Origin: Phanerodontia chrysosporium
Taxonomy: Eukaryota; Basidiomycota; Agaricomycetes; Polyporales; Phanerochaetaceae
Length of the DNA stretch: 64,000 nucleotides
NCBI GenBank assembly: GCA_001910725.1
Contig: MJGA01000006.1
Span: 1,054,001 to 1,118,000, forward strand
Direction of reading: 5' to 3'
Below, in pieces: positions 36,512-64,000 of this stretch. How positions within the stretch are numbered: position 1 is the first letter of the stretch; every line of letters starts with the position of its first letter. The notes below the pieces were generated by a model. The model was not told the DNA's origin and did not search any database. It saw only the letters and a program-made list of their open reading frames with translations. The translations under genes and the position numbers were made by a program.

Positions 36512-37111
36512 TATCACAAAAATGTGCTGCCCTAGCGCCTATACACCAAACCAACCAGCAATACTCACTGGCAAAGGTTTACTTGGACTACAAAGGGTGT
36601 AGCCAAGCTTGAAGACGAGGTATAGAGACTAGAGAGGTGAGATGCGATGAGATTGAAGCTGGGGAGGCACCCCCAGCCCTCAGGGTTTATATACATGTGC
36701 ACCAGGTCCCCAGGGACCGGTGTTCAGGGTCCTAGCTATCTAATACCTACTACGCTATTGGCTAGTGCCCTACAGGCATTCCTACATTCTCCTACACGTT
36801 CCTAAATGTTCCTACGATGTCCCAGAAACCTCCAGAACGTTCCAGCACTGTCCGGACCTGTCCAGAGACCTCCAGGGCTTTCTAGTCCATTCCGGAGTGT
36901 CTCGGCGCTTCCAGACCCTTGCCTGCTTCTAGACCTTCGACCATGTGACCCTGGGATACCGCACGTGTGCGCATCACGTGACCGCCGTATCACGTGACCA
37001 GCCCCGAGCCTAGGGCTGTCACTCCAGCGCTTCTGCATGTCACAGTTCGGAGTAATCGCTTCTGTCACCTGCTGCCCCTAACCCTAAGGGTTAAGACGAA
37101 AAACTGTGACA
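36512..37111 (-). repeat. Element 1, 3' LTR (600 bp)
   Basis: Complete LTR copy. On the minus strand a TATATAAA box lies at 36693-36686. Upstream in U3 are three CACGTG boxes (36962-36967, 36975-36980, 36991-36996) and a telomere-like CCCTAACCCTAAGGGTTAA at 37076-37094. Between U3 and TATA (36770-36880) there is a degenerate array of TTCCTA and TCCAG words. Confidence 0.93.
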
Positions 37112-44010: not shown

Positions 44011-44409
44011 TATCACAAAAATGTGCTGCCCTAGCGCCTATACACCAAACCAACCAGCAATACTCACTGGCAAAGGTTTACTTGGACTACAAAGGGTGTA
44101 GCCAAGCTTGAAGACGAGGTATAGAGACTAGAGAGGTGAGATGCGATGAGATTGAAGCTGGGGAGGCACCCCCAGCCCTCAGGGTTTATATACATGTGCA
44201 CCAGGTCCCCAGGGACCGGTGTTCAGGGTCCTAGCTATCTAATACCTACTACGCTATTGGCTAGTGCCCTACAGGCATTCCTACATTCTCCTACACGTTC
44301 CTAAATGTTCCTACGATGTCCAGAAACCTCCAGAACGTTCCAGCACTGTCCGGACCTGTCCAGAGACCTCCAGGGCTTTCTAGTCCATTCCGGAGTGTCT
44401 CGGCGCTTC
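44011..44409 (-). repeat. Element 1, 5' LTR, R-U5 and proximal U3 part
   Basis: First part of the split 5' LTR. It includes the TATA box (44185-44192) and the transcription start region, and ends in GCTTC (44405-44409), the left copy of the element 2 target duplication. Confidence 0.93.
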
Positions 44410-45103
44410 TGTCACGGATGTGACGGTGCTGCCCTATTTTTCGCCGATTTTTGGCTATTTTCCTCGATTAATCCAACGGGCGAGCAGCCCTCGCGCCGTC
44501 TGGAGTCCTAGCCGCCCACACTCAGCGCCTGGCCATGCAGCGCCAGCGCCCTGATGGCGCATCACCCCTAGACGCCAGCGCATCCCGCTGCGCGCTCAGA
44601 CGCTGCCCGGATCACCGGTCTGCCCTGCAACCGGTTCCCCGGATCGCCGAGGAGGCACTGTCATCCCTGATGACTCCCCTCGCCGAGACACGCCGAGCTG
44701 ATCAGCCTGATGACACAGCCTCGGCCCGACGCAGCCTCGAGATACTGCCAGCTGACACAGCCTCGTGACATAGCCCCAGCACAGCCTCGCCGCGCAGCCC
44801 GCGTCGCAGCCTCGCTGGCTATGCTGAGCGCTGCCCATCAGCTTATGTAATCGTATAGCCTGCCCTGAACTCTTGTAGTATATATAGGTAGCACCTCTCG
44901 CTCCTGTCCGTCATCTCGACCTCTTGGTCAATACGGACAGGTAAGCCCCCGCTTGTATTGTAATTACAAACACTAATGATATCTTGGTCAATACGGACAG
45001 TTGAACAAACCGTTCGTCGCTGCGTGATTCGCTCCGCCGCGCCATCTCGTCGACCTCCCCACTTGTGCTCCCTCGTGAAGCGTTGAGCCCCTGCTCCGCG
45101 ACA
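44410..45103 (+). repeat. Element 2, 5' LTR
   Basis: 694 bp. TATATATA at 44879-44886; predicted RNA start ATCTCGACCT at 44913-44922. A 17-nt direct repeat TTGGTCAATACGGACAG occurs at 44924-44940 and 44984-45000, flanking a GTAAG...CTAAT...ACAG segment. Confidence 0.95.
44941..45000 (+). other. Intron-like segment in element 2 LTR leader
   Basis: Begins GTAAGC, has a CACTAATG branch-point-like site and ends GGACAG, 60 nt in all, the normal intron size here. Identical 17-nt repeats end at each splice border. The sole ATG (44976-44978) between the predicted RNA start and the gag ATG 1.4 kb later lies inside it. The same segment is in the 3' LTR (51941-52000). Confidence 0.5.
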
Positions 45104-45105
45104 TT

Positions 45106-45115
45106 AGGTCGAGAT
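45106..45115 (+). promoter_or_regulatory. Element 2 self-primer binding site
   Basis: AGGTCGAGAT, 2 nt after the LTR end, is the exact complement of ATCTCGACCT at the predicted RNA 5' end (44913-44922), which begins 34 nt after the start of the TATA box. Confidence 0.75.
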
Positions 45116-45233
45116 CTTTTGGGTGCCCTAGGCATTTTTCCCTACCGCTCCCCCAAACCCCGTTTAAAAAAGTTTATTCCCTCCGTTTAAAGCGAGTACG
45201 TCGTAGTCGAGCAGCCTGCTCACTCCGTACACG

Positions 45234-45943
45234 TTGCTGAAGTCCTTGCTTGCAGTGCCGAAAGACGTCCGGCTCAAGGACCACATCCCCCAGCGCATCT
45301 TCGACCGCCTCCAACGTCGTCGCGAGGCCGGTAACCCCGTCAAGTGGACAGACCGCAAAGTCAAGGCGGTCGTCAAGTACGTCTCCACGCTCCCCCAGCC
45401 TCCACCCTCCGTCCCCTCCATCAACTGGACTGCCGTTCGCGAGGCTCGTGAAGCCGAACAGCGTGTAGGCAACCACATCCGCGAGCAGCGCCAACGCGAG
45501 GCGCAAGAAGCCCAGGCCGCCGTAGCCGCCTCCTCCTCTAAGCTCAGTTTGGCAGAGCGCCTCAGCGCCGCCCCGACGTACGAGCCCATCACCCGCAAGC
45601 CCGTCGGCATCGACATCCCGAAGTACTCCCCACCGACCTCGTCGGCATCTTTACGCCCAAGCTCGACGCAACCATCAAGCGTCTCAAGGCCGTCGAAGAA
45701 GTCGACCTCTTCCACCTCGTTAACAGCGACCGCGCGCACGGCGTCTGCCAGCTGCTCGAACGCCTTCGGCAGATTCGCAACGAGCTCAGCCGCCTCGCTC
45801 CTACCACTACGTTTAAGGAGTGGCATCAGTACGAGCTTGGACTAGCTCAGATTGGTGACATTCCGTTCGTCGGCTTAAGGCGCAATTTCCGCCGCATCGT
45901 AGGAGAGCTGGACATAGTGTACCGGGCCGGGTATTTCGATTAG
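45234..45943 (+). other. Element 2 pre-gag open frames without any Met codon (ORF0)
   Basis: The first frame (from a TTG at 45234) encodes a basic region, then a Glu/Ala/Gln coiled coil, up to I-D-I-P-K; the coding sense then shifts by -1 near 45623 and continues V-L-P-T-D-L-V-G-I-F to the stop at 45941-45943 (ending G-Y-F-D). Leu/Glu/Arg spacing suggests helices. No ATG occurs anywhere in 45104-46371. The gag frame itself is open back to about 45859, overlapping the end of ORF0 in the -1 frame, so an ORF0-gag fusion by frameshifting is possible. Confidence 0.45.
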
Positions 45944-46371
45944 TTTACAAATACATTTCTGTCGCTCTGGATTTCGATTGCTCGAATTGTCCGCACTTCT
46001 TCGGGCGAACCACAGAGAACGGCGTCACTCTTCCTGCTGATCTCCACGTCGAGGAAAACAACGGGTCTCGAGAAGCCAGGGAGTGCAGTCAGCAGCCCTG
46101 CCCTTATCGAGAGACTGCCCCTCCGCTACTCCCGGTTCCGCCTAGCGACCGAGAGACACAGTTCGAGCGCCCTCATTTCGCGCAACGGCTAGAATTCGCC
46201 CGCGCCTCTGCCACCACTCCGAATACTCCTGATCACAGTCCCCCGGACAGCAGCCACCACTCGTCTCCCGAGACATCGCTCGGCTCCGTCCTCTCCGAAC
46301 ACGAACCCGCTCCCTCTCCGTTTAACCTCTCCCGCGCTCAATCAGGAGCCAACACTCCCCGTCCCCCCAAC

Positions 46372-47633
46372 ATGTCGAGCACTCCCGGTGGAGCGCCTCC
46401 CGGCCCGGCTCCCCCCGACCCCATCTCCGCTGCCCTCCTGCAAATGGCCCAGGCGATGACGCAGCTTACAAATACGGTTAACACTCTGGCCCAGACTATT
46501 GGCGCCAATCGGACAACGGTCAACGCAACGGTCAATGCCAACAAGGAGCTCCCTTCGTCGAGAAGCCCATGCCATTCAAAGGAAAGGGTTCAGACACGGC
46601 CCGACTCTTCCGCGCCGCCTATCGCATCTACGCCGACGGACAGCCGGAGAAATTCGGCAAGCGCGACGTCAACGGTAACCTCGAGCGGGACGCAAACACC
46701 GGCAAGATCTTGGTAGACGGCCAGAAGTGGATCGTCGGCGCTCTCTCCTTCATGCAGGATGAAGCGGCGGAATGGGCACGACAGTACATCGAGCAAGCGG
46801 CAGACGGCACACAGATATTCGACGGCTCTCGCGCCACGTTCTGGGAAGCTTTTAAGAACCGGTTCGAGCCTATGGACGAGAAGGCCGAGGCCCTCAGCAA
46901 GCTACAGGCGTGTACACAAGGCAACCGTCGGTTCGCGGAGTTCTTTGCGGAGTTCCAAGCCCTCGCCGGACGCACGAAGCTCACTCCGGAAGACCTGGCG
47001 GCCCGGCTACGGACGAAGTTCAACAAGGACTACCTCGAACGGATTTCGTACATGGTCAACCCCAGCACCGGCAAAGGCCCCGAGACGTACGACGAGCTCA
47101 AGAACGCTGGCTTTGCCGTCGATCGGTCGAAGGATAAGCTTTCGCAGGACCTCCTGGCGCAGCAGGGCAAGACGTCCTCGTCTCCGGCTAGCTCGTCGGC
47201 GCGCGCCTTCCGCGACCCGAACGCGATGGACATCGACGCCGCGAACATTGACGAGCTGTTTAAGGGTCTCACTGGCACGGATCTCAAGCGCCAGTTCGAT
47301 GCCGTCATGAAGGATCGCTGCAAGGTCTGCGGCTCGAAATCCCACAAGTCCACGGACCCCGTGCACCGCGACTCGGTTTGCAACCACTGCGGCAAGAAGG
47401 GACACTGGTCCCGCGTCTGTCGTGCCCGCCTCGAGGGCAAGCCGAGAACCGCCCCCGCTACTGCCGCCGTCCGCGCTTCGTCTTCGGATACCTCGTCACA
47501 GGACTCCTCGTCTCCGGCCTCCTCGTCTTCTGGCAGCTCGTCTGACGACCAAGCCGCCGCGCTCGCCGCCCTCCGTGATCAGCTGGCCCTGATACAAAAG
47601 CAGCTCGGGGTTTTGCTTAAGGGGCCGGAGTGA
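46372..47633 (+). pseudogene. Element 2 gag (one frame break)
   Basis: Starts at the first ATG after the LTR (M-S-S-T-P-G-G). The first 60 codons lead into a -1 shift at a CCC run (46551-46553). After it, P-M-P-F-K-G-K-G-S-D and A-Y-R-I-Y-A-D-G start the capsid-like part, and a CCHC knuckle C-N-H-C-G-K-K-G-H-W-S-R-V-C lies near the end, before a Ser-rich tail. With one C restored the protein would be about 420 aa. Confidence 0.85.
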
Positions 47634-50600
47634 CGCCGCATCGTCGGTCCCCGTTTCATCAAGCCCGGATTCAACTCCGGCACCGTCGTTAGAACCACAG
47701 GACCTCTCAGATACCATCCGCTCGTGTACAATATCAGTGTTAGATCCTTTTTCCAATCACTATCGTGTACCTGTAAAGCTCACCGGACTCAATAAAACTA
47801 TTCGCACGCCTGCAATGATTGACTCCGGTGCGACTTCGCTATTCATCCACGAGGATTTCTGTAAACAACACAAGATCCTCACGGTACCACTCAAGAAGGA
47901 AATCACACTATACAACATCGACGGAACTAAGAATGAAGCAGGATCTATCACACGCCGTGCCAGACTCCAGCTCACTGTGGGTTCTTATACGTTTAAAGAA
48001 GAGTTTCTTGTCACGAACATCGGTCCGGAGGACGTCATCCTCGGACTTCCGTGGCTCAAGAAATGGAATCCGAACATCGACTGGGAAACGGGAGATGTCC
48101 AGTTTCAGCTCCGCGGCGGAGCTGAGGACACCCCGGTTTTCGGTATCCATCAGATTGACGCCAACCGCTCCGAACGCCGTGAATGGCTTCGAGCAGGCAT
48201 TGTTGAGGACGCCAAGGACGAAGTCTGGATTCTCGCCGGCTACACTTACTCGCAAGCGATCGCTGTCGAAGCCAATCGCGAGAAGTACGCCAAGACGTTC
48301 GAAGAGCTGGTTCCCAAAGAGTACCACCGACACAAGAAGGTGTTCTCTGAAGAGGAATCACACCGTCTTCCGAAGCATCAGCCCTGGGACCACGCGATAG
48401 ATCTCGTCCCGGACGCCCCGGCATCGATCAAATCGAAGGTCTACCCCATGTCCCCAATCGAGAATGAGGAACTACAGCGGTTCATCGACGACGCACTCGC
48501 CAAGGGCTACATCGTCCCCAGCAAGTCTCCGATCGCTTCCCCTGTCTTCTTTATCAAGAAAAAGGACGGCAAGCTCCGGTTCATCCAGGATTACCGCAAG
48601 CTCAACGACATCACTGTGAAGAATCGCTACCCCCTTCCCCTCGCCTCCGACATCATCGGGAAGCTCCAGGGCGCTAAGATCTTCACCAAGTTCGACGTCC
48701 GTTGGGGCTACAACAACGTCCGGATTAAGGAAGGTGACGAATGGAAAGCCGCCTTCGTCACTAACCGCGGTCTCTTCGAGCCCCGAGTCATGTACTTCGG
48801 TCTGTGCAACAGCCCCGCCACGTTCCAGGCCCTCATGAATCATATCTTCGCCGACCTCATCGCTGAGAGCAAGGTCGCAGTTTACCTCGACGACATCCTC
48901 ATCTGGTCGAACGATCTCGCTTCGCATCGGAAGATTGTTCACGAGGTCCTGGCACGCCTCGCCAAGTACGATCTGTATCTTCGGCCCGAGAAGTGCGAGT
49001 TCGAGCGCTCAGAGATCGAGTACCTTGGGCTCCTCATCAGCGAGGGACAGGTCGGCATGGACCCGGCAAGGTTAAGGCAGTAGCCGAGTGGCCGACCCCG
49101 AAGAACCTCAAAGATGTACGAGGCTTTGTCGGGTTCGCCAACTTCTATCGCCGTTTCATCAAGGACTTCTCAAAGATCTGCCGCCCGCTGCACGATCTGA
49201 CGAAGAAGGATACTCCGTTTAATTGGGGTCCCGCACAGGCGGAAGCCTTCGAGACGCTCAAGCGCGCTTTCACGACTCAGCCCGTGCTCGCCATGTGGAG
49301 CATTGATCGGCCAACTCGCGTCGAGACCGATGCTTCTGGCTACGCCACCGGAGGAGTCATAGCCCAACGCAACCCCGAAGATGGTCTCTGGCATCCAATC
49401 GCGTATCGCTCGCAGACCATGAGCCCCGCCGAGCGGAACTACGAGATCTGGGACCGCGAGATGCTTGCAATCATCGAAGCTCTCAAGGACTGGCGCCAAT
49501 TCCTCGAAGGTCTCCCGGAGCCTTTTGAGATCTGGACTGATCATCAGAATCTTCAGTACTGGAAGACTGCGCAGAATCTCACGCGGCGACAAGCCCGCTG
49601 GGCCTCCTACCTCGCCGAGTACGATTTCCGCATCATCCATCGCCCCGGCAAGACGCATCTCCTCGCCGACCCGCTCTCCCGGCCTTCCTCGCTGCATGTC
49701 TCTGACGAAGAGGACAACCGCTCACAGATAGTATTGAAGCCAGAGCTGTTTAAGATAGCCGCCACGGTGGCTCTCGCAAACCCCTCCCCCCTCGAGAAGC
49801 GCATTCGCGACTGCTCCGAAAAGGAAAAGGAAGTCGCAGACGCTCTGCAGGTTCTCCGGACCAAGGGGCCCCGCAAGCTGCGCAACGGCGTTCTCGAATG
49901 GGAAGAAGACAACGGCCTTCTGTACTACCATGGAAAAGTCTATGTGCCGAACAGTGCCGCGCTGCGCAACGACGTCATCAAGTCTTGCCACGACGCGCCA
50001 ACGGCTGGACACCCTGGGAAGCACACCACCCTCGAGTTGGTCTCTCGGTACTATTGGTGGCCGCGCATCTCCGCCGACGTTAGCCGCTACGTGCTCGGCT
50101 GTGACCAATGCCAACGGTACAAGTCCGCCCCGCATCCGAAAGCCACCCTACAGCCCCACGACGTCCCTTCAGGGCCTTGGGAACACGTCGGCGTGGATCT
50201 CATCACGCAGCTCCCACGCGACGCCAAGACCAAGAAGGACTCGATTGCGGTCTACGTGGACCACTATTCGGATCAGTGCCACCTTGTGCCGGTCGACTCG
50301 ACGATCACCGCTGCCGGCATGGGCGACGTCCACTACACGGACATCTTCCGCCTCCACGGCCTCCCACGCAAGATCTTCTCTGATCGCGGACCCCAGTTTG
50401 CAGCCCAGTACATGCGAGCGCTGTACAAGCGCCTCGGCATCGCTACTGGTCTTACCACGGCATATCACCCAGAAGGCAACGGCAAGGTCGAGCGCAAGAA
50501 CCAGGAAGTCGAGAAATTCCTGCGTCTCTTCGTCTCCCAGCGCCAAGACGACTGGGTCGATTGGCTTCCGATGGCCGAGTTCACTCTGAACTCACACGTG

Positions 50601-51371
50601 TCCAGTGCTACCGAGCGCACGCCCTTCGAGATTGTTTACGGCTACACACCGGACTTCACGATCCCGGCCGGCAAACACACCAACGTTCCCGCCCTCGACG
50701 AGCGTCTAGACCGCATGGCTCACGTCCGCAAAGAGGCCGAAGCTGCCCTGCGCCTAACCAAAGCCCGCATGAAAGAAGAGTACGAGGCCGCGAAGAAACG
50801 CGCCCACTCCTTCAAAGTCGGCGATCAGGTTTGGCTCAGCACGAAGGACCTCAGCATCGATCAGCCTTCGCCCAAGCTCGGCCCCCGCCAGCTGGGTCCG
50901 TTTAAGGTTCTAGAAAAGATCGGCGATCTGGACTATCGGCTCGAGCTCCCGAGCTGGCTGAAAATCCACCCGGTTTTCCATGTCAACCGCCTCAGCCCGT
51001 GGCACGATCAGGGCGTCGAGAAGCCTCTGCCTCCCAAACCTGTCAAGGTTGCCGGCGAAGAAGAATACGTCGTCGAGAAGGTCCTCGACAGCCGTATATA
51101 TCGCCGCCAACTGCAGTACAAAGTCCGCTGGAAAGGCTACGGTCAAGCCGGCGACACGTGGGAAAAGGCAGACAACCTCAAGCACGCCAAGGCCCTGGTC
51201 AACAAGTTCCATCGCGAAAATCCGGAAGCGCCCCGCAAGCTCGCTGCCACTGCCTTCGAAGCCCTTGCCGCCTCTTTTCGCCCGTTCGTCACCGAAGTCG
51301 ACGTCTCTCTCCTTCCTGCCTCCGATCGCGCTAAGGCTGATCTCGATTGGGAGGAGGGGCGCCACATCTGA
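47634..51371 (+). pseudogene. Element 2 pol (one frame break)
   Basis: The pol frame is open from within the gag end, +1 relative to gag. Protease A-M-I-D-S-G-A-T at about 47815; reverse transcriptase V-Y-L-D-D-I-L-I-W at about 48880; a -1 shift at CAAGG (49067-49071) between RT and RNase H; then V-E-T-D-A-S-G-Y, W-T-D-H-Q-N-L, the integrase zinc finger (H-D-A-P-T-A-G-H, C-D-Q-C) and the D-D-E core (S-D-R-G-P-Q-F), and a C-terminal chromodomain (Y-V-V-E-K-V-L-D, Y-K-V-R-W-K-G-Y). No dUTPase follows the chromodomain, unlike element 1. Confidence 0.9.
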
Positions 51372-51409
51372 CGACCTCGCGAGGACGCTCGGTTTTAGGA
51401 GGGGGGTAA

Positions 51410-52103
51410 TGTCACGGATGTGACGGTGCTGCCCTATTTTTCGCCGATTTTTGGCTATTTTCCTCGATTAATCCAACGGGCGAGCAGCCCTCGCGCCGTC
51501 TGGAGTCCTAGCCGCCCACACTCAGCGCCTGGCCATGCAGCGCCAGCGCCCTGATGGCGCATCACCCCTAGACGCCAGCGCATCCCGCTGCGCGCTCAGA
51601 CGCTGCCCGGATCACCGGTCTGCCCTGCAACCGGTTCCCCGGATCGCCGAGGAGGCACTGTCATCCCTGATGACTCCCCTCGCCGAGACACGCCGAGCTG
51701 ATCAGCCTGATGACACAGCCTCGGCCCGACGCAGCCTCGAGATACTGCCAGCTGACACAGCCTCGTGACATAGCCCCAGCACAGCCTCGCCGCGCAGCCC
51801 GCGTCGCAGCCTCGCTGGCTATGCTGAGCGCTGCCCATCAGCTTATGTAATCGTATAGCCTGCCCTGAACTCTTGTAGTATATATAGGTAGCACCTCTCG
51901 CTCCTGTCCGTCATCTCGACCTCTTGGTCAATACGGACAGGTAAGCCCCCGCTTGTATTGTAATTACAAACACTAATGATATCTTGGTCAATACGGACAG
52001 TTGAACAAACCGTTCGTCGCTGCGTGATTCGCTCCGCCGCGCCATCTCGTCGACCTCCCCACTTGTGCTCCCTCGTGAAGCGTTGAGCCCCTGCTCCGCG
52101 ACA
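51410..52103 (+). repeat. Element 2, 3' LTR
   Basis: 694 bp, reads identical to the 5' LTR. It is followed by GCTTC at 52104-52108, the right target duplication. Confidence 0.95.
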
Positions 52104-52108
52104 GCTTC

Positions 52109-52308
52109 CAGACCCTTGCCTGCTTCTAGACCTTCGACCATGTGACCCTGGGATACCGCACGTGTGCGCATCACGTGACCGCCGTATCACGTGACCAGCC
52201 CCGAGCCTAGGGCTGTCACTCCAGCGCTTCTGCATGTCACAGTTCGGAGTAATCGCTTCTGTCACCTGCTGCCCCTAACCCTAAGGGTTAAGACGAAAAA
52301 CTGTGACA
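52109..52308 (-). repeat. Element 1, 5' LTR, distal U3 part
   Basis: The remaining 200 bp of the split LTR, with the three CACGTG boxes (52159-52164, 52172-52177, 52188-52193) and the telomere-like palindrome. It is now separated from its own TATA box by 7.7 kb. Confidence 0.93.
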
Positions 52309-54958: not shown

Positions 54959-56660
54959 CCGCCCGCATCTTTCGGTACGCTCACCGAAGCGATGGCTGAC
55001 GCGGCCAAGGCCAAGTACGACGCCGGAAAGTCCTCGAATGGCAAACGGGCCGTCTCTGCCATCACCGTTGAGACGGTCGATGAACCTATTGACATAGCGG
55101 CTGTCCGCACGGAATCACCGGCGGCGGTTCTCACTGGCGTCCTGTCCTACGGATCGGACAGCCCGGATTCAGAGTGCGTGGCAGATTTCTTTCATCCCCA
55201 CCTTCTTTGGTCCGCCGTTATACGGAGCTGCAACGGACCCGCCTTCTCTGCGACCATTCCCATGATGATTGACACGGGATCCCCCACAGTGCTGATTAGA
55301 GGCGACCTCGTCGACCTCTACGGCCTCCGTCGTCGTCGGCTGCACAAGCCCGTTCCCTTGGGGAGCGCATGGAGTGATGGTTGCAGAGAGGCGACAGAAT
55401 GGTGTAAATTGCGGCTTTCTTCTTCGGACTTGCAATGGACTTCAAAGACTCTTCGTGCCGTAATTGTTCCTGAACTTTGTTCTCCTGTAATTCTTGGTCA
55501 ACCCTTTGTTGTTTCGAATGGATTAATCATTGACTCCGGTGCCCAAACGGTTATTGAGAAACGTTCAGGTCTAGATATTATGCATTTGCCTCCCCTTTCG
55601 CCTCCCTCCTCTCCTTTATCATCCAAAGACCGTCGGATAGATGACCTCTCTCGTTCCCGCGCACTGAAGAATGCGCTTCAACGTTGCCATATTCATATCA
55701 AAGAACTTTTCCACTTCTTCCCTGACATACTTGATCCTTCCTTAGATACCTTCCAAGCTCCTACGTCGCTGAATACCGTCATTACAAACGGCGACGTAGC
55801 GACACCCACAAAACCGCACCTGTCACCGCACGATAGCACGACGACAGGGGACAGGGCGGTCGTGGAGGCGAACACCGTTATAAAGAACGCCTCCACGGGT
55901 GACGATCCGAACACCGTTATAAAGAACGGATCGTCATCGACCTTCTTTCGTTTCACCGATGTTTTTGGATTCCATTCTTATTCACGTTCTCGAGCACCCC
56001 GTAGTTTACAAATTTCTGCGCGAATTCGCGCCATGGACGATATGGACGAACCAGCTATCAGTCCGGAAAGGGCAAGGGATTTAGCATACCAACAAGAGCA
56101 GGAGGGAAGGGAGACGGCGAGGAGAGTAGTAGCAGCGGTGCGGGAGGCGGTTGAAGAGTTGGCGATGAAGACTACGTTTGCCGAAGAAGATCACAAGATG
56201 CGCATCAAGTACCGAGACGTTTTCCCTGACGATATTCCCCACGTAGATCGACTCCCGACAAACATCCTGCACCACTTCAAGCTCAAAGACCCCGACCTCG
56301 TCATCTCCCGCCGACAATACGACTGCCCGAAGAAATACCGCGAAGTATGGCGACAACTCCTGGACGAACACCTCCAAGCCGGCCGACTACGCCCATCTGC
56401 GTCGCCGTACGCCTCACCAGCTTTCCTAATCCCGAAGTCTGATCCTACTGCCAAACTCCGATGGGTCAACGACTACCGCATTCTGAACGACAACACTATT
56501 CCCGATCGGCATCCGCTACCGTCGGTGAACGAGATCCTCGGAGACGTCGCGAAAGGTAAAATCTTCGCCAAGCTGGACATGACGAATTCCTTCTTTCAGA
56601 CCCGTGTTCACCCTGACGACATTCCGCTGACCGCCATTACGACGCCCTTTGGGTTGTACG
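54959..56660 (+). pseudogene. Element 3 pol, 5' half (interrupted)
   Basis: In the same frame as gag after a single UGA followed by CCG, so readthrough would give a Gag-Pol protein. Aspartic protease M-M-I-D-T-G-S-P-T at about 55260; a second I-I-D-S-G stretch near 55530; then a long linker that contains three hairpins (55761-55938). Reverse transcriptase begins P-A-F-L-I-P-K-S-D and K-L-R-W-V-N-D-Y-R-I-L-N; the sequence stops at T-T-P-F-G-L-Y, where element 4 begins. The rest of RT, RNase H and integrase are outside the window. Confidence 0.82.
55761..55938 (+). repeat. Three hairpins with constant loop and covarying stems
   Basis: Hairpin 1: arms 55761-55771 and 55789-55799, loop 55772-55788. 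Hairpin 2: arms 55861-55870 and 55888-55897, loop 55871-55887. Hairpin 3: arms 55901-55909 and 55927-55935 (extendable to 55898/55938), loop 55910-55926. Loops 2 and 3 are identical (AACACCGTTATAAAGAA); loop 1 differs at 5 of 17 positions. The stems are unrelated in sequence but fully paired (one G-U in stem 1). The loops encode N-T-V-I-(T/K)-N in frame. Confidence 0.7.
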
Positions 56661-57192
56661 TGTCAAGGTGCGAGACGGAGATGGGCCGGAGAACGAAGGA
56701 CGGAGCGGAGAAAGGGTCGGAGAAGGGCGGAGGTCGGAGGTCGGATGGCAGTCGGCTTCAGCCTTAAAGGGCTGCGCCCTCGGCGGTCTGCGTTGCCTGG
56801 ATTTCGGAGTCGGAGATACGGAGAAGTGGCGGGGTTCGGGCCCACACAGAGATTGTGAGAAAGGATTAAGCAGAGTCGAGAAGGTACAAGGGGGACCTAA
56901 GTCGATATCCGAACTGAGGATACAAGTGCTAGCGCGGGAGCTTATATACTACTGAGTCCGGAGTTCGTGGAGATGGTCGGAGATGTACAAAACATATCAT
57001 ACTTCCAATCTGGGATTTGTCTCAGGAACGAAGGGGTAAAGGTTTGCGAGATGATGAAGGCATGTGGTGAAGATAAGACCTTAGCAACCGACCGGAGTCG
57101 CAAACTCCGAATGTCCGTGCTACTCCGTAGCTTCCCTCGAACTCCGGCGTTCTCCATGACCGGAGTTGGCTCGGGATTTCAGCGCCATGACA
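56661..57192 (-). repeat. Element 4, 3' LTR (532 bp)
   Basis: Minus-strand TATATAA at 56948-56942; predicted RNA start AGTTCGGATAT (minus strand of 56915-56905). I counted 17 CGGAG/CTCCG words by eye in this LTR; about 1.4 are expected by chance. Confidence 0.9.
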
Positions 57193-57398
57193 GTACCTCC
57201 CTCTTAGGCCGAGACCTTCGAGGCCAAGCGAATTCGCGACATCGTACGACTTTCGTATTTTTCGTGCCCCAACGGAATGCGGCGCTCCCCAGCGGATGAA
57301 AATTGATCGGGTATCCGGGGTTGCGGAAGGGGTGCCCGGGGTACGGATTTCGGGTATTTTAGGCTCGCGGATTCTGGCTGGGGTTCCTCAGAACCACC

Positions 57399-58546
57399 AT
57401 GTCTTCCGAAGACGAACGACTCGAGCAGGGTAAGTACCCCGGAGTTTCGTCTTCCGGAGTTCGAGACTAACGGAGTTTGCAGAAATCCGGAAGGCCGAGG
57501 AGGAGGCCAAGAAAGCCCTCGAGGAGGCGGCGCGCAGACGGCGCGAGATCGAGCAGCGGCGCGAGGAGGCGAAGCGGAAGGCGGAGGAGGAGAGGCGGAA
57601 GGCGGCGGAGGCGGAGAAGCGGAAACGGGCGGCGGAGCTGCGGAAGCAGCGGGAGGAGAAGGAGGCGAGCGGGTCCGCGTCGGCCGCGAAGAGAAAGCGG
57701 CCGGAGGTGGCGGAGGGGTCCGCGGAGGCGGGAGCCCGGAGGCACGCGGAGGCGGAGGCCGCCAAGCAGGCCCCTTGCGACTCTTGTCGCAAGTTGGGCC
57801 TGGAGTGCGAGTGGCGGGTTGGGGGGCGGGCGAAGGCCTGCCAGCCGTGTGCGGTCGCCAAGCGGCCGTGCACGAAGGGTGGCGTCTCCGTGAGCGGAGC
57901 CGCGCCGCGGAAGAAGGCCGCGGAGAAGGGGAAGGGCAAGGCCCCGGTGACGGCGGAGGAGGTCGCGGACTCCGAGGCCGGAGCGGAGTCGGAGGTGGCG
58001 ACGGCCGCGGGGGCGATCGCGGAGGCCCTGGGCCTCCTGACGGAGGCGGTGGACGACCTCACGGCGGAGGTCAAGCGCCAGGGCGACGAGACCCGGCGCG
58101 AGTTCGCCAAGTTCGCCTACACCATGGGGGTGTTGGCGGACACGCTGTACGCCGGTCTCGCCGACCCGGACTTCGACGACGCCCTCGTCCGGATGCAGGG
58201 TCTGGGTCCGGCGCCGGGGCCGGAGGTGGAGGTGCCGGCGGAGCAGGTGGAGGCGGTGCGGAGGGAGCTGGACCTGATCAAGGCGGATCAGGCGCGGTGG
58301 CCCCGTGAGGTCAAGAAGTGGGCCGTCCGCGTGGGGTCGATGAAGGCGGAGTTGGAGCGGGCGGAGGCGGAGCAGAGCGGAGAAGAAGACGGAGAAGGAG
58401 ACGAAGAAGAAGAAGAAGAAGGGGGCCCTTTGGCGGAGGCGCAGGAGACGGAGGGTGAGGAGGAGAGCTCGGAGGAGAGCTCGGAGTCATCGGAGGAGGA
58501 GGAGGCGGAGAAAAGTCCGGCGCGGAAGAAGGCGAGGAAGGAGTAG
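57399..58546 (+). CDS. Zn2Cys6 coiled-coil protein encoded antisense inside element 4
   Basis: Two exons, 57399-57429 and 57483-58546, with a 53-nt GTAAGT...TTGCAG intron; the joined frame gives 364 aa. The ATG has a strong context (CCACC before it). Residues 1-70 form a Glu/Lys/Arg-rich coiled coil, K-R-K-R-P near residue 80 is a likely nuclear signal, and Cys 109, 112, 119, 130, 133 and 140 follow C-x2-C-x6-C-x10-C-x2-C-x6-C, the pattern of the Gal4-type zinc cluster, a fungal DNA-binding domain. The C-terminal third is a helical region ending in a highly acidic tail with Ser-Glu repeats, as in activation domains. It lies between the 3' LTR and the end of pol, on the strand opposite to gag-pol. 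Function is unknown; a DNA-binding regulator is inferred. Confidence 0.75.
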
Positions 58547-58798
58547 GGGTTTTTGTTTTTTGTTTATGTTATGTTTTTCTTTTTTTAATACTATGTGATG
58601 TTTTTCGGGGGATTCCTTGTGTGAGAGTGAGAGTGAGAGTGAACGGATACGGGAGACCGGAATTAGGGACGGAGTTCGGAGACGGAGAAATCGGAGAAAT
58701 CGGAGAAATCGGAGAGAGACTTTGTTTGGGTTTTTTTTTTTTTTGATGTTGGTTCAGGGCGTGAGAGAGAAAAATGGAGAGAGAGAAACGGAAGGGTA

Positions 58799-61700
58799 TC
58801 ATCGGGGTACGGAGTCCGAGAGTGGACCGGGTTTTTCGGGGTACCGGAGATGGAAGTCCGCAATGTGTTCCTGAGCATGCTCTAGCTCGCTTGCCGGAAT
58901 CCATTCGAACTCTTCGTCGGTGTTTTCATATCCTAACCAGCGGACCTTGTAGAGGAGGGGGCATCTCCGACGTTTGTCGATCTTGGAGTCTACGATCTCG
59001 GAGATCTCGTATTCGAGGTCTCCGTCGATTTCGACCGGAGGTGGCGGAGATGTAGTCCGACCTGGAATAGAACTAGAAAGGTGAGGTTCTAACATGGATA
59101 TGTGGTACACGGGGTGTACGGTGCGGAATTCGCGGGGTAGCTGCAGTGTATAGGACTGCGGGCCAACCTTTGCTATGACCTTGTAAGGGCCAAGCATTTT
59201 CTCCGCAAGCTTCGGAGATGGACGGGTAGTCCGGAAGTGCTTAGCCTTGACGAAGACCATGTCTCCGACCTGGAGGTCAGGCGGAGGTGATCTCCGGGCA
59301 TCGGCAGGTCCTTGGTAGCGCTTCTGCGCTTCCGCGATCTGTGTCCGGAGCTCCGACTGGAGCTCGTGGAGATCGACAGCGAAGTCGCGAGCGCGGGCGG
59401 ACGCGATGTCACGCTCGGGGTGCACTGTGAGATTCGGGTGATAACCCTTGTTAGCGAAGAACGGAGAAATGCCCGTTGTTGCGCTCGGGGCATTGTTGTA
59501 CGCAAACTCCGCGAGCGGAAGTAACTCCGACCAGTTGTCCTGCTGGTAATTGCAGTACATCCGGAGATACTGCTCGAGAGTCTGGTTAGTACACTCTGTC
59601 TGCCCATCTGCCTCGGGATGATACCCGGAGGTGTAGTGGAGCTCGATGTCCAGAGCCAGTGCCAGAGAGCGGAAAAACTGAGAGACAAATTCGGAACCTC
59701 GGTCGGAGGTGACGTGCGAGGGAACTCCGTGCTTGGAGAAAACATGGAGGATGAACAACTTAGCTAGTCCCGGAGCATCAATCTCGTCGTGGGTGGGGAT
59801 GAAGATTGCCTGCTTTGTGAGACGATCCACCACCACAAGGATAGCGGAGAATCCGAAGGACTTCGGAAGGTGCTCGATGAAGTCCATGGAGATGGAGTTC
59901 CATGGCTTCTCCGGGATCGGAAGTTGTTGCAGAGTTCCGTATGGCTTGTGCCGGGGCGCCTTGGATCTCCTGCAAGTCGTGCAAGACTGGCAGTAGTCCT
60001 TGACAAACCCACGGACACCGGGCCACGTATACTCGCGTCGGAGGAGCTCGAGAGTCTTGTTAAAGCCGTAGTGACCCGCGAGGGGGTGGTCGTGCTTGTA
60101 ACGGAGAACTCGGAGCCGGAGTTCGGGAATGTCGGGGACGTAGATGCGATTGTCGAGAAGAAGTAAACCTGTATTATCAGCGGACCAGCGCGGAGGAAGC
60201 GGAGATTGGGAAAGGATAGAAGAAGCAAGGGAATCCGTAGCCAAAGCCTTACGAATATCGTCGTGCAGTGTTTCCACGTCCATAGTGACCACAGCCCGGA
60301 GAACCGGAGCTGCGAGGATGGTCGCTCGGAGGGATGCAGCGAGATGCTCGGAGGTGAAGATCGGCTTATAGTTGTGCGGATTGACGTTGGCGTAGCCGTT
60401 ACCTCCCTCTTTAAGGTAGACGTCCCATCGTCGAGTGAGCGCGTCGGGCTTGGTGCCCAGACGGCCGGGACGGAAGCGGATGACCATGTTGAAGGAGTTC
60501 AGAAACTCCGACCACCGGGCTTGTCTCCGGGTCAGGAGTTTCGTCGTGGAGAAATACTCCAGGTTCTTGTGGTCGGTGATGACGTCTATGGGGGTAGAGG
60601 AGCCTTCGAGGTAGTGCCGCCAGATGCGGAATGCCTCGAAGATGGCTAGCAACTCCTTGTCGTGAACGTCGTAGTTCAACTCCGTAGCGGAGAACGTCCG
60701 GGAGTGGAACGCAAGCGGATGAACGCCGTCGTCCGTGACCATGGATAGGATGGCCGCTAGTGCATAGTCGGACGCATCGGTCTCCACAATCAACGGAGCT
60801 CCGGGCTTCCACTGCGCCAGTGTCGGAGCGGACGTGAAAGCCTTTTTCAAGGTATCGAACGCCTCCTGACACTGCGGAGTCCACTTCCACGGAGTATTCT
60901 TCCGGGTGAGACGGGTTAGCGGAACAACGATATCGGAATAGAAAGGAATGAAGCGACGATAGAAATTTGCAAACCCTAGGAAGGACTGTATGTCCTTGAC
61001 CTTCCGCGGAGTAGGCCAGTCAAGAATAATCTTGACCTTGTCCTCGGACATCGAAAGTCCGGAGGGGGACAAGATGTATCCGAGGTACTCCACCGAGTCA
61101 GTGTGGAACTGACACTTTGGAGCCTTGGCGTAGAGGCCATGCTCGCGGAGTCTGCGGAGAACTTCGCGGACGTGTTTCCGGTGCTCCTCCGGAGAATCGG
61201 AGTAGATGAGGATATCGTCGAGGTAGACGATAACACATTCATCGAGCAGGTCGCGGAAAACGTCGTTCATGAATCTCTGGAAAGCAGCAGGAGCATTAGT
61301 AAGACCCTCAGGAATAACCAACCACTCGAAAGAGCCGTAGCGCGTGCGGAACGTGGTTTTCCACTCGTCGCCCTCCGCGATGCGGACCAGATGGTACGCA
61401 TGGCGGAGATCTATCTTGGTGTAGATACGGGCTTTCCCCGGAGCATTCAGGAGATCGGAGATGAGCGGGAGGGGGTAGTGGTCTTTCTTGGTGATGCGAT
61501 TCAGTGCGCGGAAATCCACACAGAGGCGTAAACTCCCGTCCTTCTTCTTGACGAAGAGGATCGGAGCTCCGTGCGGTGAGGCGGACTGGCGGATGAATCC
61601 TGCGGAGAGATTCTTATCGATGAACTCGCGGAGAGCCTGGAGTTCAGCCGGAGATAGGGAGTAGAGACGCCCCGGAGTTAGGGGTTTTTCATCTTCCAAC

Positions 61701-62480
61701 TCGATTTTGAGGTCGTAAGGTCGGTGAGGAGGTAGAGTGTAGGCACGTTCCTCGCTGAAGACGTCGACGAAGTCGTGATACTCTGGGGGAACATTGGATA
61801 GGTCGAGCGGGGGTGTCGGAGCGGGAGTAGCGGAGTCGGAGACGGCGCGCAGACGGAAGTGGAATACTTCGGAGCCGGGCAACTGCGAGGCTCGCGCGAA
61901 TGCGGCTGCTCCGATAAGGGAAACGAGAGGAGCGGAGCGGAGTTCAGGAGGAGTGGGATCGGAAGACTCGTCGGAAGTGGGGGTTTTCTCCGGAGATGTG
62001 GCCTTATCAGCCGGAGACGGGGGTACGGGAGAGACTGCAGGCGGAAAGGTGATGGTACGGGCTGCCCAGTCAATCGACGGATTGAAGGCGGATAGCCAGT
62101 TGAGACCTAAGACTGCAGTCGACGGAGAGTCGAGTTTAGTAACGTAGAAAGACAAATCCAGGGTGTTCCCGGTCGGAAAAGTGACCGGAAGATCAACGGA
62201 GAAGGAGATGGTCCCTGCAAGAGATCCATCGAAAAGACGGAGCGGAAGCGGAGGAACGGACTTGAGCCGGAGATGGTGCCGTTTGGCAAAATCGAAATCA
62301 ATGAAACAATGTGAGGAGCCACTGTCTAGCAGCGCAAGAAGAGAAAGATCGGGGGGTGCGGTTAGCGGAACATAGAAGGAATGCGACGGAGAAAGAGCGG
62401 ACGCGTTGAGACGGAGCTCCTCGGATGCACGGGAAGATTCAACGCAACTCTCGGCCCGTGCGGAGCCACGAGAGTTGCTC
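58799..62480 (-). CDS. Element 4 pol: protease, RT, RNase H, integrase, chromodomain
   Basis: A continuous frame in the -1 phase relative to gag and open through the gag end. Protease L-L-D-S-G-S-S-H at about 62325; RT with V-Y-L-D-D-I-L-I-Y at about 61220; RNase H V-E-T-D-A-S-D-Y at about 60775; integrase zinc motif (H-D-H-P-L-A-G-H, C-T-T-C) and core (T-S-D-R-G-S-E-F); the L-G-P-Y-K-V segment; a chromodomain (Y-E-I-S-E-I-V-D, Y-K-V-R-W-L-G-Y) at about 59010-58920. No frame break was seen. The first in-frame start of pol alone is not an ATG, consistent with frameshifted expression. Confidence 0.92.
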
Positions 62481-63873
62481 AGGCTTTTGACTCCGAGCTC
62501 TGCGGAGTAGCGGAGCTCGTGGTCGTAGCCGAGCGGGCCTTAGCCTGAGAGGCCGTAGAGGCGGGGTTGGTACAGTCCCGGGCCTTGTGGCCGGGCTTTG
62601 CGCAGAACATGCACAAGTTGTTTTCGAAACGGCGTTTACGCTCCTCTGGCGTTAGCTTACCGTTCTTGTCCAAACCCATTGCCTTTGCCCTGTCAGCGGT
62701 GGAGTTGTTGCCGCCGCTGTTGTTTCCGGGCCGCGGCGCGGAGTTCGCCCTCGGGTTCGGAGTATCATTCCTGCCCCCGGAGTTCGAACCCTTTGCCTGG
62801 TTGTTGTTGCCGCTGGACTTAGCAGCCTGGTTGCCGTTGCCGCTGCTCGACGCATTGTTAGAACTGCCTCCGGAGTTGTTACTCCGAGAGCCGGAGTTCT
62901 GCGACGAGCTGGCTTTCGGTTGAGACCCCCGTTCACGGCGGATCTCTTCCTGGCGCTCCCAATATCGCCGGTCGTAGAGCTGGATCATCCTCCGCATTCC
63001 GGCCAGCGTTTTAGGCTTGCCGGACGGGGACTCGGAGATCTTGTCCTTGAGCCGGGCTGGGAGGCCCTTGTAGAGCAAGAAGCACAAGGCCGGCTCGCTC
63101 CACTGAACTCGGGATGCTAACCTGTTGAATTCAGCAAGATATTTTGCGCACGGCTTATCGTCGCGCATGGTTAGCGTCTGGAGTTTGGACTCCGCGTCGC
63201 CCTCCGGGTCAAAGACTCCGAAGTTTGACTGGAGTTCCTCCACGAAGATGTCCCAGTCGTCAATCCATTCCGGATCTTCGCCCCTCATGATGGCTGGTTC
63301 AAACCAGTCCAACGCAGTACCCTTGAGGTACGAGAGAGCGAAGCTGACCTTGTCCTGACCCCGGGAGAAACTCCGGGTATCAGTCCGGAAGGCCAGTTGA
63401 CACTGGAGCAGGAAGGTGTTGAGCTTCTGTGGGTCGGAGCCATCGAACGGGTCGGGCTTCCGGACCTTCACAGAGCGGGGCGGAGGAGAGGAGGACGTCT
63501 TACGAGTTAATCGTTCCAGTACCTCCGCTAACCGGACTATGTCCGATGGCGGAGCTTCCTCGTTCCGTGGCTCCGAACGTCGTGAGCCGGAACGGGACTG
63601 GGAGCCCTCTCTACTCCGGTTGGAATCCTGGAACGGGTTGTTCGGGGATTCGCGAGGCATGTGGAATTCCGGGACCGGAGGTTCCTCAGAGGCCCGGTTT
63701 TCCGGTTGCGGCTCTGCAGCCTGGGGTTCCTCGTCTGGACCTAGTTCTTCGAACCGGTCCTCGTCCGGAGTCGTGTGTCGTCGCGACACGGGTCGTTGCG
63801 ACGTGGATCGTTGCGACGTGGATCGTCGCGGCCGGACGTTGATGTGTCCGTACGCCTGCTGGAAGGCGCTCAT
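62481..63873 (-). CDS. Element 4 gag
   Basis: 464 codons from ATG 63873 (M-S-A-F-Q-Q-A) to a stop at 62481-62479. A Ser/Arg/Glu N-terminus is followed by the capsid-like region (V-R-K-P-D-P-F-D-G-S-D-P, then L-S-Y-L-K-G-T-A-L-D-W-F), an Asn/Ser/Gly-rich stretch and a CCHC knuckle C-M-F-C-A-K-P-G-H-K-A-R-D-C. The leader between the LTR and this ATG is only 28 nt, unlike the long leaders of elements 1 to 3. Confidence 0.92.
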
Positions 63874-63888
63874 GCAGTGCCGAGTGTG

Positions 63889-63899
63889 AGTTCGGATAT
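63889..63899 (-). promoter_or_regulatory. Element 4 self-primer binding site
   Basis: On minus, ATATCCGAACT begins 2 nt after the LTR border (63902). It is the exact complement of the predicted RNA 5' end (AGTTCGGATAT, minus strand of 56915-56905), which starts about 34 nt after the TATA box. The 11-nt length and 2-nt gap equal those of element 1. Confidence 0.75.
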
Positions 63900-63901
63900 A
63901 C

Positions 63902-64000
63902 TGTCAAGGTGCGAGACGGAGATGGGCCGGAGAACGAAGGACGGAGCGGAGAAAGGGTCGGAGAAGGGCGGAGGTCGGAGGTCGGATGGCAGTCGGCTTC
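63902..64000 (-). repeat. Element 4, 5' LTR, partial
   Basis: Begins TGTCAAGG and reads identical to 56661-56759 over the 99 bases available. The window ends inside it. Confidence 0.9.

Follow-up and report, generated by a model that had tools for sequence, protein, structure and literature searches.

Several long terminal repeat (LTR) retrotransposons of plants carry an antisense open reading frame (ORF) between pol and the 3' LTR, among them Grande (gene23), RIRE2, Retand (the TRP28 ORF) and PvRetro13, according to excerpts of two accounts (PMC7264820, PMC11963269). Here we analyse a gene of this kind in element 4, a minus-strand Ty3/Gypsy retrotransposon with a chromodomain, in a 64,000-nucleotide stretch of the Phanerodontia chrysosporium genome (C102:1054001-1118000; hereafter the window). 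The gene has a predicted product with a Zn2Cys6-like cluster, and the element that carries it is packed with the word CGGAG; together these suggest a protein that marks its own copies.

As far as the excerpted accounts go, the plant ORFs resemble the gene of element 4 in position, in orientation, in presence in most copies and in a proposed nuclear or DNA-binding role (PMC7264820, PMC11963269), and gene23 of Grande has its own promoter upstream (PMC7264820). The products of the plant ORFs are described there as having no reported similarity to other proteins, except for domains such as TRP28 and SMC (PMC7264820), whereas element 4 has a Zn2Cys6-like domain, a conserved intron and an element-wide motif, none of which these excerpts report for the plant cases (PMC7264820, PMC11963269). 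An earlier interpretation of this locus, which we call the sequence-only reading, had cited antisense extra genes from some plant Gypsy elements. They are indeed known there, but fungi have them too: Boty-like chromodomain Gypsy elements of Botrytis cinerea carry brtn, like the gene of element 4 an extra antisense gene in a fungus, as parts of two reports indicate (PMC8365987, PMC4227169). One Monilinia transcript, recorded as chromo-domain containing, resembles a truncated Pol and BRTN (PMC5987419), a likeness that, in the portion of that report at hand, does not point to Zn2Cys6. The best-ranked open-licence literature on extra genes of LTR elements contained no Gypsy element with a Zn2Cys6 gene, which is weak evidence of absence, and the same literature, in which no search was aimed at a motif, yielded no element-wide one.

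VANDAL elements are plant DNA transposons. In Arabidopsis, excerpts of the work on VANC describe it as an element-encoded, sequence-specific protein whose short motif is crowded into its own element and seldom occurs in other transposable elements, and document sequence-specific anti-silencing by this transposon-encoded protein (PMC5735166). Element 4 is similar in that CGGAG is dense within it and sparser in three other element regions and in positions 1-36000 of the window, the regions with which it was compared. It differs in that the VANC21 motifs are 9 bp long and lie, in the text excerpted, mainly in non-coding tandem repeats (PMC5735166), whereas CGGAG is 5 bp long, dispersed and present also in the codons of gag and pol, and in that VANC belongs to a plant element and the present gene to a fungal LTR retrotransposon. 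Fungal DNA transposons carry TET/JBP dioxygenases, captured genes that are proposed, in the part of the source available, to counter methylation silencing (PMC12730594); these are enzymes acting on 5-methylcytosine in DNA transposons, whereas element 4 would encode a DNA-binding protein and is an LTR retrotransposon.

Results

The gene lies on the plus strand, antisense to the element, between the 3' LTR with its purine tract and the end of pol, an arrangement of two exons that can be read directly from the DNA as had been claimed. Its parts are as follows.

57193-57398, plus strand: presumed promoter and 5' untranslated region; 0 CGGAG
57399-57429, plus strand: exon 1 of the Zn2Cys6-like gene; 31 nt, CCACC-ATG start; CCACCATG in 11/11 copies
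57430-57482, plus strand: intron; 53 nt, GTAAGT...CTAAC...GCAG
57483-58546, plus strand: exon 2, with coiled coil, zinc cluster, central helices, acidic tail and KKARKE
57776-57871, plus strand: Zn2Cys6-like cluster (Cys109 to Cys140), from spacing and Foldseek matches
58013-58372, plus strand: central helical domain, common to family members in other repeats

The genome searched (39.0 Mb in 145 contigs) contains 35 matches to the gene, 11 of which are full-length copies. The normal-sized intron and strong start context noted earlier (53 nt and CCACC-ATG in element 4) recur throughout: the GTRAGTA donor, CTAAC, the GCAG acceptor and the start context are intact in all 11 copies, and the intron is 52 or 53 nt long, either length restoring the frame. 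Since the exon-2 frame has no ATG of its own upstream of the first cysteine in nine of the 11 copies, the start would be supplied by splicing; an unspliced start in exon 2 was rejected on the same ground. The other two copies have one in-frame ATG, 104 nt upstream of the proposed start. The predicted spliced product is 364 amino acids long, has an N-terminal helix predicted at a pLDDT of ~84-94, and has cysteines at 109, 112, 119, 130, 133 and 140, so that the perfect spacing seen in element 4 (C-x2-C-x6-C-x10-C-x2-C-x6-C) is shared by all 11 copies.

The gene belongs to the element 4 family and is under purifying selection. Of 131 listed places that match the 3' end of pol, 11 do so at 97% identity or more along the full 300 residues, and at every one of these 11 the gene stands antisense beside it, as the sequence-only reading would lead one to expect; copies lacking the gene, or frames decayed in most copies, were not found, and 10 of the 11 full-length copies are open, the other (L020) having a single TAG. 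A twelfth pol match (C2, 93%) lies on a contig with no gene match, but it covers residues 1-199 only and is truncated, and so is not a clean gene-less copy. Among the matches listed, an LTR pair is found ~7.2 kb apart in 9 of the 11 copies, 15.8 kb apart in the copy on C94, and the copy on C19, a short contig, has one LTR. Synonymous differences are present in 53 of the 55 copy pairs, and in all 53 the ratio of nonsynonymous to synonymous substitution rates (dN/dS) is below 1 (0.13-0.79), the value proposed earlier as the sign of a conserved gene; it is 0.13-0.45 in pairs with dS of at least 0.03. When the same substitutions were placed randomly the mean dN/dS was 0.81-0.98, and in 8 pairs selected from the 55 none of the 500 replicates per pair reached the observed value. 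The copies fall into two lineages, nine against L019 and L020, separated by a dS of ~0.2, which means that the gene has persisted over many cycles of transposition. At C85:86 kb there is an older relative whose pol end shares 87% identity (91 residues) and whose gene survives in pieces, 52-61% identical and in different frames. A chance ORF is ruled out by the 11 copies and their dN/dS.

Fungal Zn2Cys6 domains follow the pattern C-x2-C-x6-C-x(5-12)-C-x2-C-x(6-8)-C, to which the element protein conforms, and their target class is CGG-type. The fourth place between their second and third cysteines is usually basic; it is Gly in the element protein (C-RKLGLE-C), and the same interval reads C-VRRKLT-C in a Paxillus relative, P0005. 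The Pfam family Zn_clus (PF00172) has 29 matches in the genome and none in 14 control genomes, and the antisense gene is not among the 29; exon 2 has no Pfam family at E<=1, thus neither Zn_clus nor the fungal-specific transcription-factor domain. Foldseek searches with the predicted fold returned zinc-cluster DNA-binding domains only, at weak E-values, and a profile comparison of five family clusters with eight canonical domains of the genome gave a probability of 70.8% (E 3.8e-5). The cluster is thus predicted, on weak scores, to fold like zinc-cluster DNA-binding domains. The element protein resembles the domains of Gal4, Ppr1, Leu3 and Pho7 in six-cysteine spacing and, on weak scores, in predicted fold, and would share their CGG-type target class, to which the Pho7 motif belongs; it is unlike fungal Zn2Cys6 domains in having no Pfam match, Gly at the basic place and a coiled coil N-terminal of the cluster. 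The earlier description of a Gal4-type Zn2Cys6 factor therefore stands as to spacing and, with weak scores, predicted fold, but not as to type: a canonical Gal4 factor is ruled out by the missing Pfam match and the Gly. Compared with solved structures, the family profile gave 123 matches up to E 10, the best 60 of which were hemagglutinins, spike proteins and other chains, none named zinc-cluster; the hemagglutinin likeness (best E 0.0025) was taken as a resemblance of coils and set aside.

The host element, with its counts of CGGAG on either strand, is made up of the following parts.

56661-57192, minus strand: 3' LTR; 532 bp, TG...CA; 17 CGGAG/CTCCG sites
57196-57205, minus strand: polypurine tract; CCTCCCTCTT on the plus strand, read directly, adjoining the LTR end
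58799-62155, minus strand: pol, with reverse transcriptase (RT), RNase H, integrase and chromodomain; Pfam matches; 71 CGGAG/CTCCG
62479-63873, minus strand: gag; Pfam match; 24 CGGAG/CTCCG
63902-64433, minus strand: 5' LTR (window numbering; in-window part 63902-64000, remainder in L009)

One LTR and the internal part (56661-63901; 7,241 bp) contain 163 CGGAG/CTCCG, or 22.5/kb, one about every 44 bp. By the same measure, densities are 0.8, 5.0 and 3.4/kb for three further element regions, and positions 1-36000 of the window reach 2.6/kb. Within the same 7,241 bp the single-base neighbours CGGAA, AGGAG and CGGAC occur 39-50 times each, and the other 12 occur 10-29 times. Under an order-1 model CGGAG is the top 5-mer in the LTR, pol and the gag-pol gap and the second in gag and the antisense gene, and of the 22 bins into which the window was cut, just the four overlapping element 4 have it among their three leading words. 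Each 200-bp bin of the element, the short last one excepted, has at least two sites. In 500 shuffles that preserve protein and codon usage, mean counts were 26.0 against an observed 71 in pol, 8.8 against 24 in gag and 18.1 against 35 in exon 2, the observed count being reached in 0/500 each time; in two neighbouring elements, four coding pieces have counts close to those of the shuffles (8 against 6.0, 7 against 8.6, 6 against 6.4 and 5 against 5.0). The saturation is not mainly tandem. Tandem Repeats Finder gave eight rows for element 4, partly overlapping, and the clear CGGAG array is 33 bp; the short arrays include CGGAGAAAT x3.7 and GCGGAG-type units. The largest gap without CGGAG, 279 bp, spans the promoter region of the antisense gene, and such a gap somewhere is not unusual in itself; positions 57193-57398 have no site where ~4.6 would be expected at the density of the element (Poisson P 0.01).

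Of 44 LTR matches, 20 were examined for the motif. Among the 12 at >=92% identity, 11 have 13-18 sites and L050 has 9, with both gains and losses; among the eight at 83-89% identity, seven have 2-9 sites and L057, beside the C85 relative of the gene, has 12. Across the whole genome, three CGGAG within 65 bp are found at 951 places against 1,564 for a reversed control word, so that the total is uninformative; among the places listed, local density separates at least 47 overlapping rows in the 7.8-kb copy on C13 from 33 on the 2.64-Mb contig C1.

Discussion

We favour the reading that the accessory gene encodes a nuclear Zn2Cys6-type protein that binds CGGAG on copies of its own family, likely with an anti-silencing or activating effect, and we give it a probability of about one half. 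The antisense gene would have its own promoter next to the 3' LTR and be transcribed against the direction of gag-pol, and its spliced transcript would yield a coiled-coil protein that enters the nucleus and binds DNA through a Zn2Cys6-type domain, for which the most likely target is CGGAG, a CGG half-site followed by AG. As CGGAG accumulated through the LTR, gag, pol and the gene itself, the protein would come to coat its own family's copies and hardly anything else, and the most likely use of such a coating is that these copies stay transcribable, through VANC-like, sequence-specific activation or relief of silencing. The intron could survive retrotransposition because the genomic RNA, being transcribed from the opposite strand, lacks the splice signals. 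Self-recognition is indicated because a protein of a CGG-reading class is found in an element saturated with CGGAG, with neighbours that are not, and anti-silencing is favoured because it is documented in VANDAL elements and because anti-methylation genes have been proposed in fungal transposons. The sequence-only reading had already supposed that the element encodes a regulator of itself; that is not settled, and the saturation offers it a concrete target.

A bolder version, which we put forward tentatively, is that the whole element, the synonymous codons of gag and pol included, is a dispersed array of sites for its own antisense zinc-cluster protein, a self-recognition code that de-silences family copies and an independent fungal LTR counterpart of VANC. 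If true, self-recognition would have evolved again in another kingdom and another class of element, the codon choice of a mobile element would have been bent to a signal at the DNA level, and a purpose would be suggested for antisense accessory genes. The element protein and CGGAG form a concrete candidate protein-motif pair.

Several observations weaken the case from the motif. CGGAG sites are conserved among the 11 copies no better than random CpG words (37/79 against 37.1), pairwise retention is only modestly higher (six pairs), and there is a strand bias in the LTR, the gene, the 3' part and pol, with gag unbiased (13:11). Given this unraised conservation, the gains and losses in LTRs and the strand bias, it seems that number and density are kept rather than single sites, or that the process is mutational.

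The alternative that survives best, while still unlikely, keeps a CGGAG-binding protein and reverses its sign: a self-limiting repressor, a control of copy number that recruits silencing or condenses chromatin, or a means of steering integration to other elements. The acidic and basic tails and the coiled coil would suit a recruiting or bridging protein no less than an activator, and element 4 itself lies inserted in the RT-like frame of another Gypsy element; a self-repressor, however, would probably benefit the element less than an anti-silencer. Next, and again improbable, the saturation may be a by-product of mutation, conversion or slippage with no selection for binding sites. Such a process would account for the unraised conservation of sites and for the short arrays, but the tandem arrays are a small part of the whole, the sites are spread across all 7.2 kb and through codon phases, CGGAG is 3 to 16 times commoner than each single-base neighbour (163 against 10-50), and the neighbouring Gypsy elements of the window have nothing similar. 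The strand bias would be at home in a third, rather improbable account, which places the signal in the RNA: CUCCG would be scattered along the genomic RNA as a word for packaging or for Gag binding and would have nothing to do with the Zn2Cys6 protein; gag does not share the bias, however, and CGG is the expected core for the domain that the element encodes. That the gene is a captured host passenger, or that only its antisense transcript matters, is very improbable, since relatives outside the element, in another multi-copy repeat and in Paxillus, count for less than the purifying selection seen at the protein level in two or more lineages (dS ~0.2) and the retention of the splice signals.

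Relatives and genomic context

The relatives within the genome lie in a different multi-copy repeat of at least 10 kb (L040, C63:417001-427000; L041/L042, C85:55001-70000), which has no match to gag or pol of element 4 and no Pfam family above the cut-off in the ORFs scanned. It carries several coiled-coil family genes on one strand, with or without the cysteine cluster, and could be a large mobile element, or one of chromosome ends, that has yet to be described. One family member (L042:608-1666; 347 amino acids) has the central helical domain and a KRARTKE tail without the cluster, and over residues 161-287 it shares 46% identity with the element protein; the helices, not the cysteine cluster, may be the core of the family. 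CGGAG is raised in three of the six family genes of this repeat (<=6/500 shuffles; two of the six were assigned by eye) and in four of 13 non-coding stretches (<=4/500), and, at the 1% level, in none of six other ORFs; for a gag-like frame in a neighbouring element the shuffles gave 19/500.

Three protein searches, each scoring ~8,000 candidates, extended the family beyond this genome. Exon 2 alone had one match, from Paxillus (E 9.2e-4), residues 88-292 had none at E<=0.01, and alignment A1 had 12 of the same build, 11 from two Paxillus species and one unnamed, with scores that are not independent of the first Paxillus match, a piece of which A1 included. Two database relatives are labelled Zn(2)-C6 by UniRef. 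The gene of element 4 was probably captured from, or shared in either direction with, such a wider family.

We also note that the L040/L041 repeat has conserved ORFs of ~400 amino acids (paralogues at 28% identity) and that some of its copies lie at contig ends. The telomere repeat TTAGGG x3 (exact TTAGGGTTAGGGTTAGGG) was found at 0 places in 39 Mb, so that contig ends may lack telomeres or the repeat may differ, and the gene arrays at contig ends are therefore not demonstrable as subtelomeric.

Element 4 is a young retrotransposon: its 5' and 3' LTRs are identical at 532/532 positions, and the 5-bp target-site duplication GTACG is present at both ends. Retrotrans_gag, RVT_1, RT_RNaseH, Integrase_H2C2, rve and Chromo are above the Pfam cut-off, in the order gag and then RT-RNase H-integrase-chromodomain; zf-CCHC is under it (17.3 against 20.8), and no protease family is among the Pfam matches.

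The insertion of element 4 (56656-56661) interrupts the RT-like frame of another Gypsy element (ORF 54992-56767, running into the LTR). Further nesting can be read from the repeat pattern in the window, where another Gypsy element (44410-52103), whose own LTRs run from 44410 and from 51410 to ~52103, divides the second LTR of one element into 44011-44409 and 52104-52308. The pattern also takes in 36512-37111, with a 5-bp overlap (36907-36911), as a target duplication would give. Elsewhere in the genome, at C67:207862-208756 and 223165-224059, LTRs of element 4 are flanked by extra inverted LTR pieces in a mirror-image arrangement.
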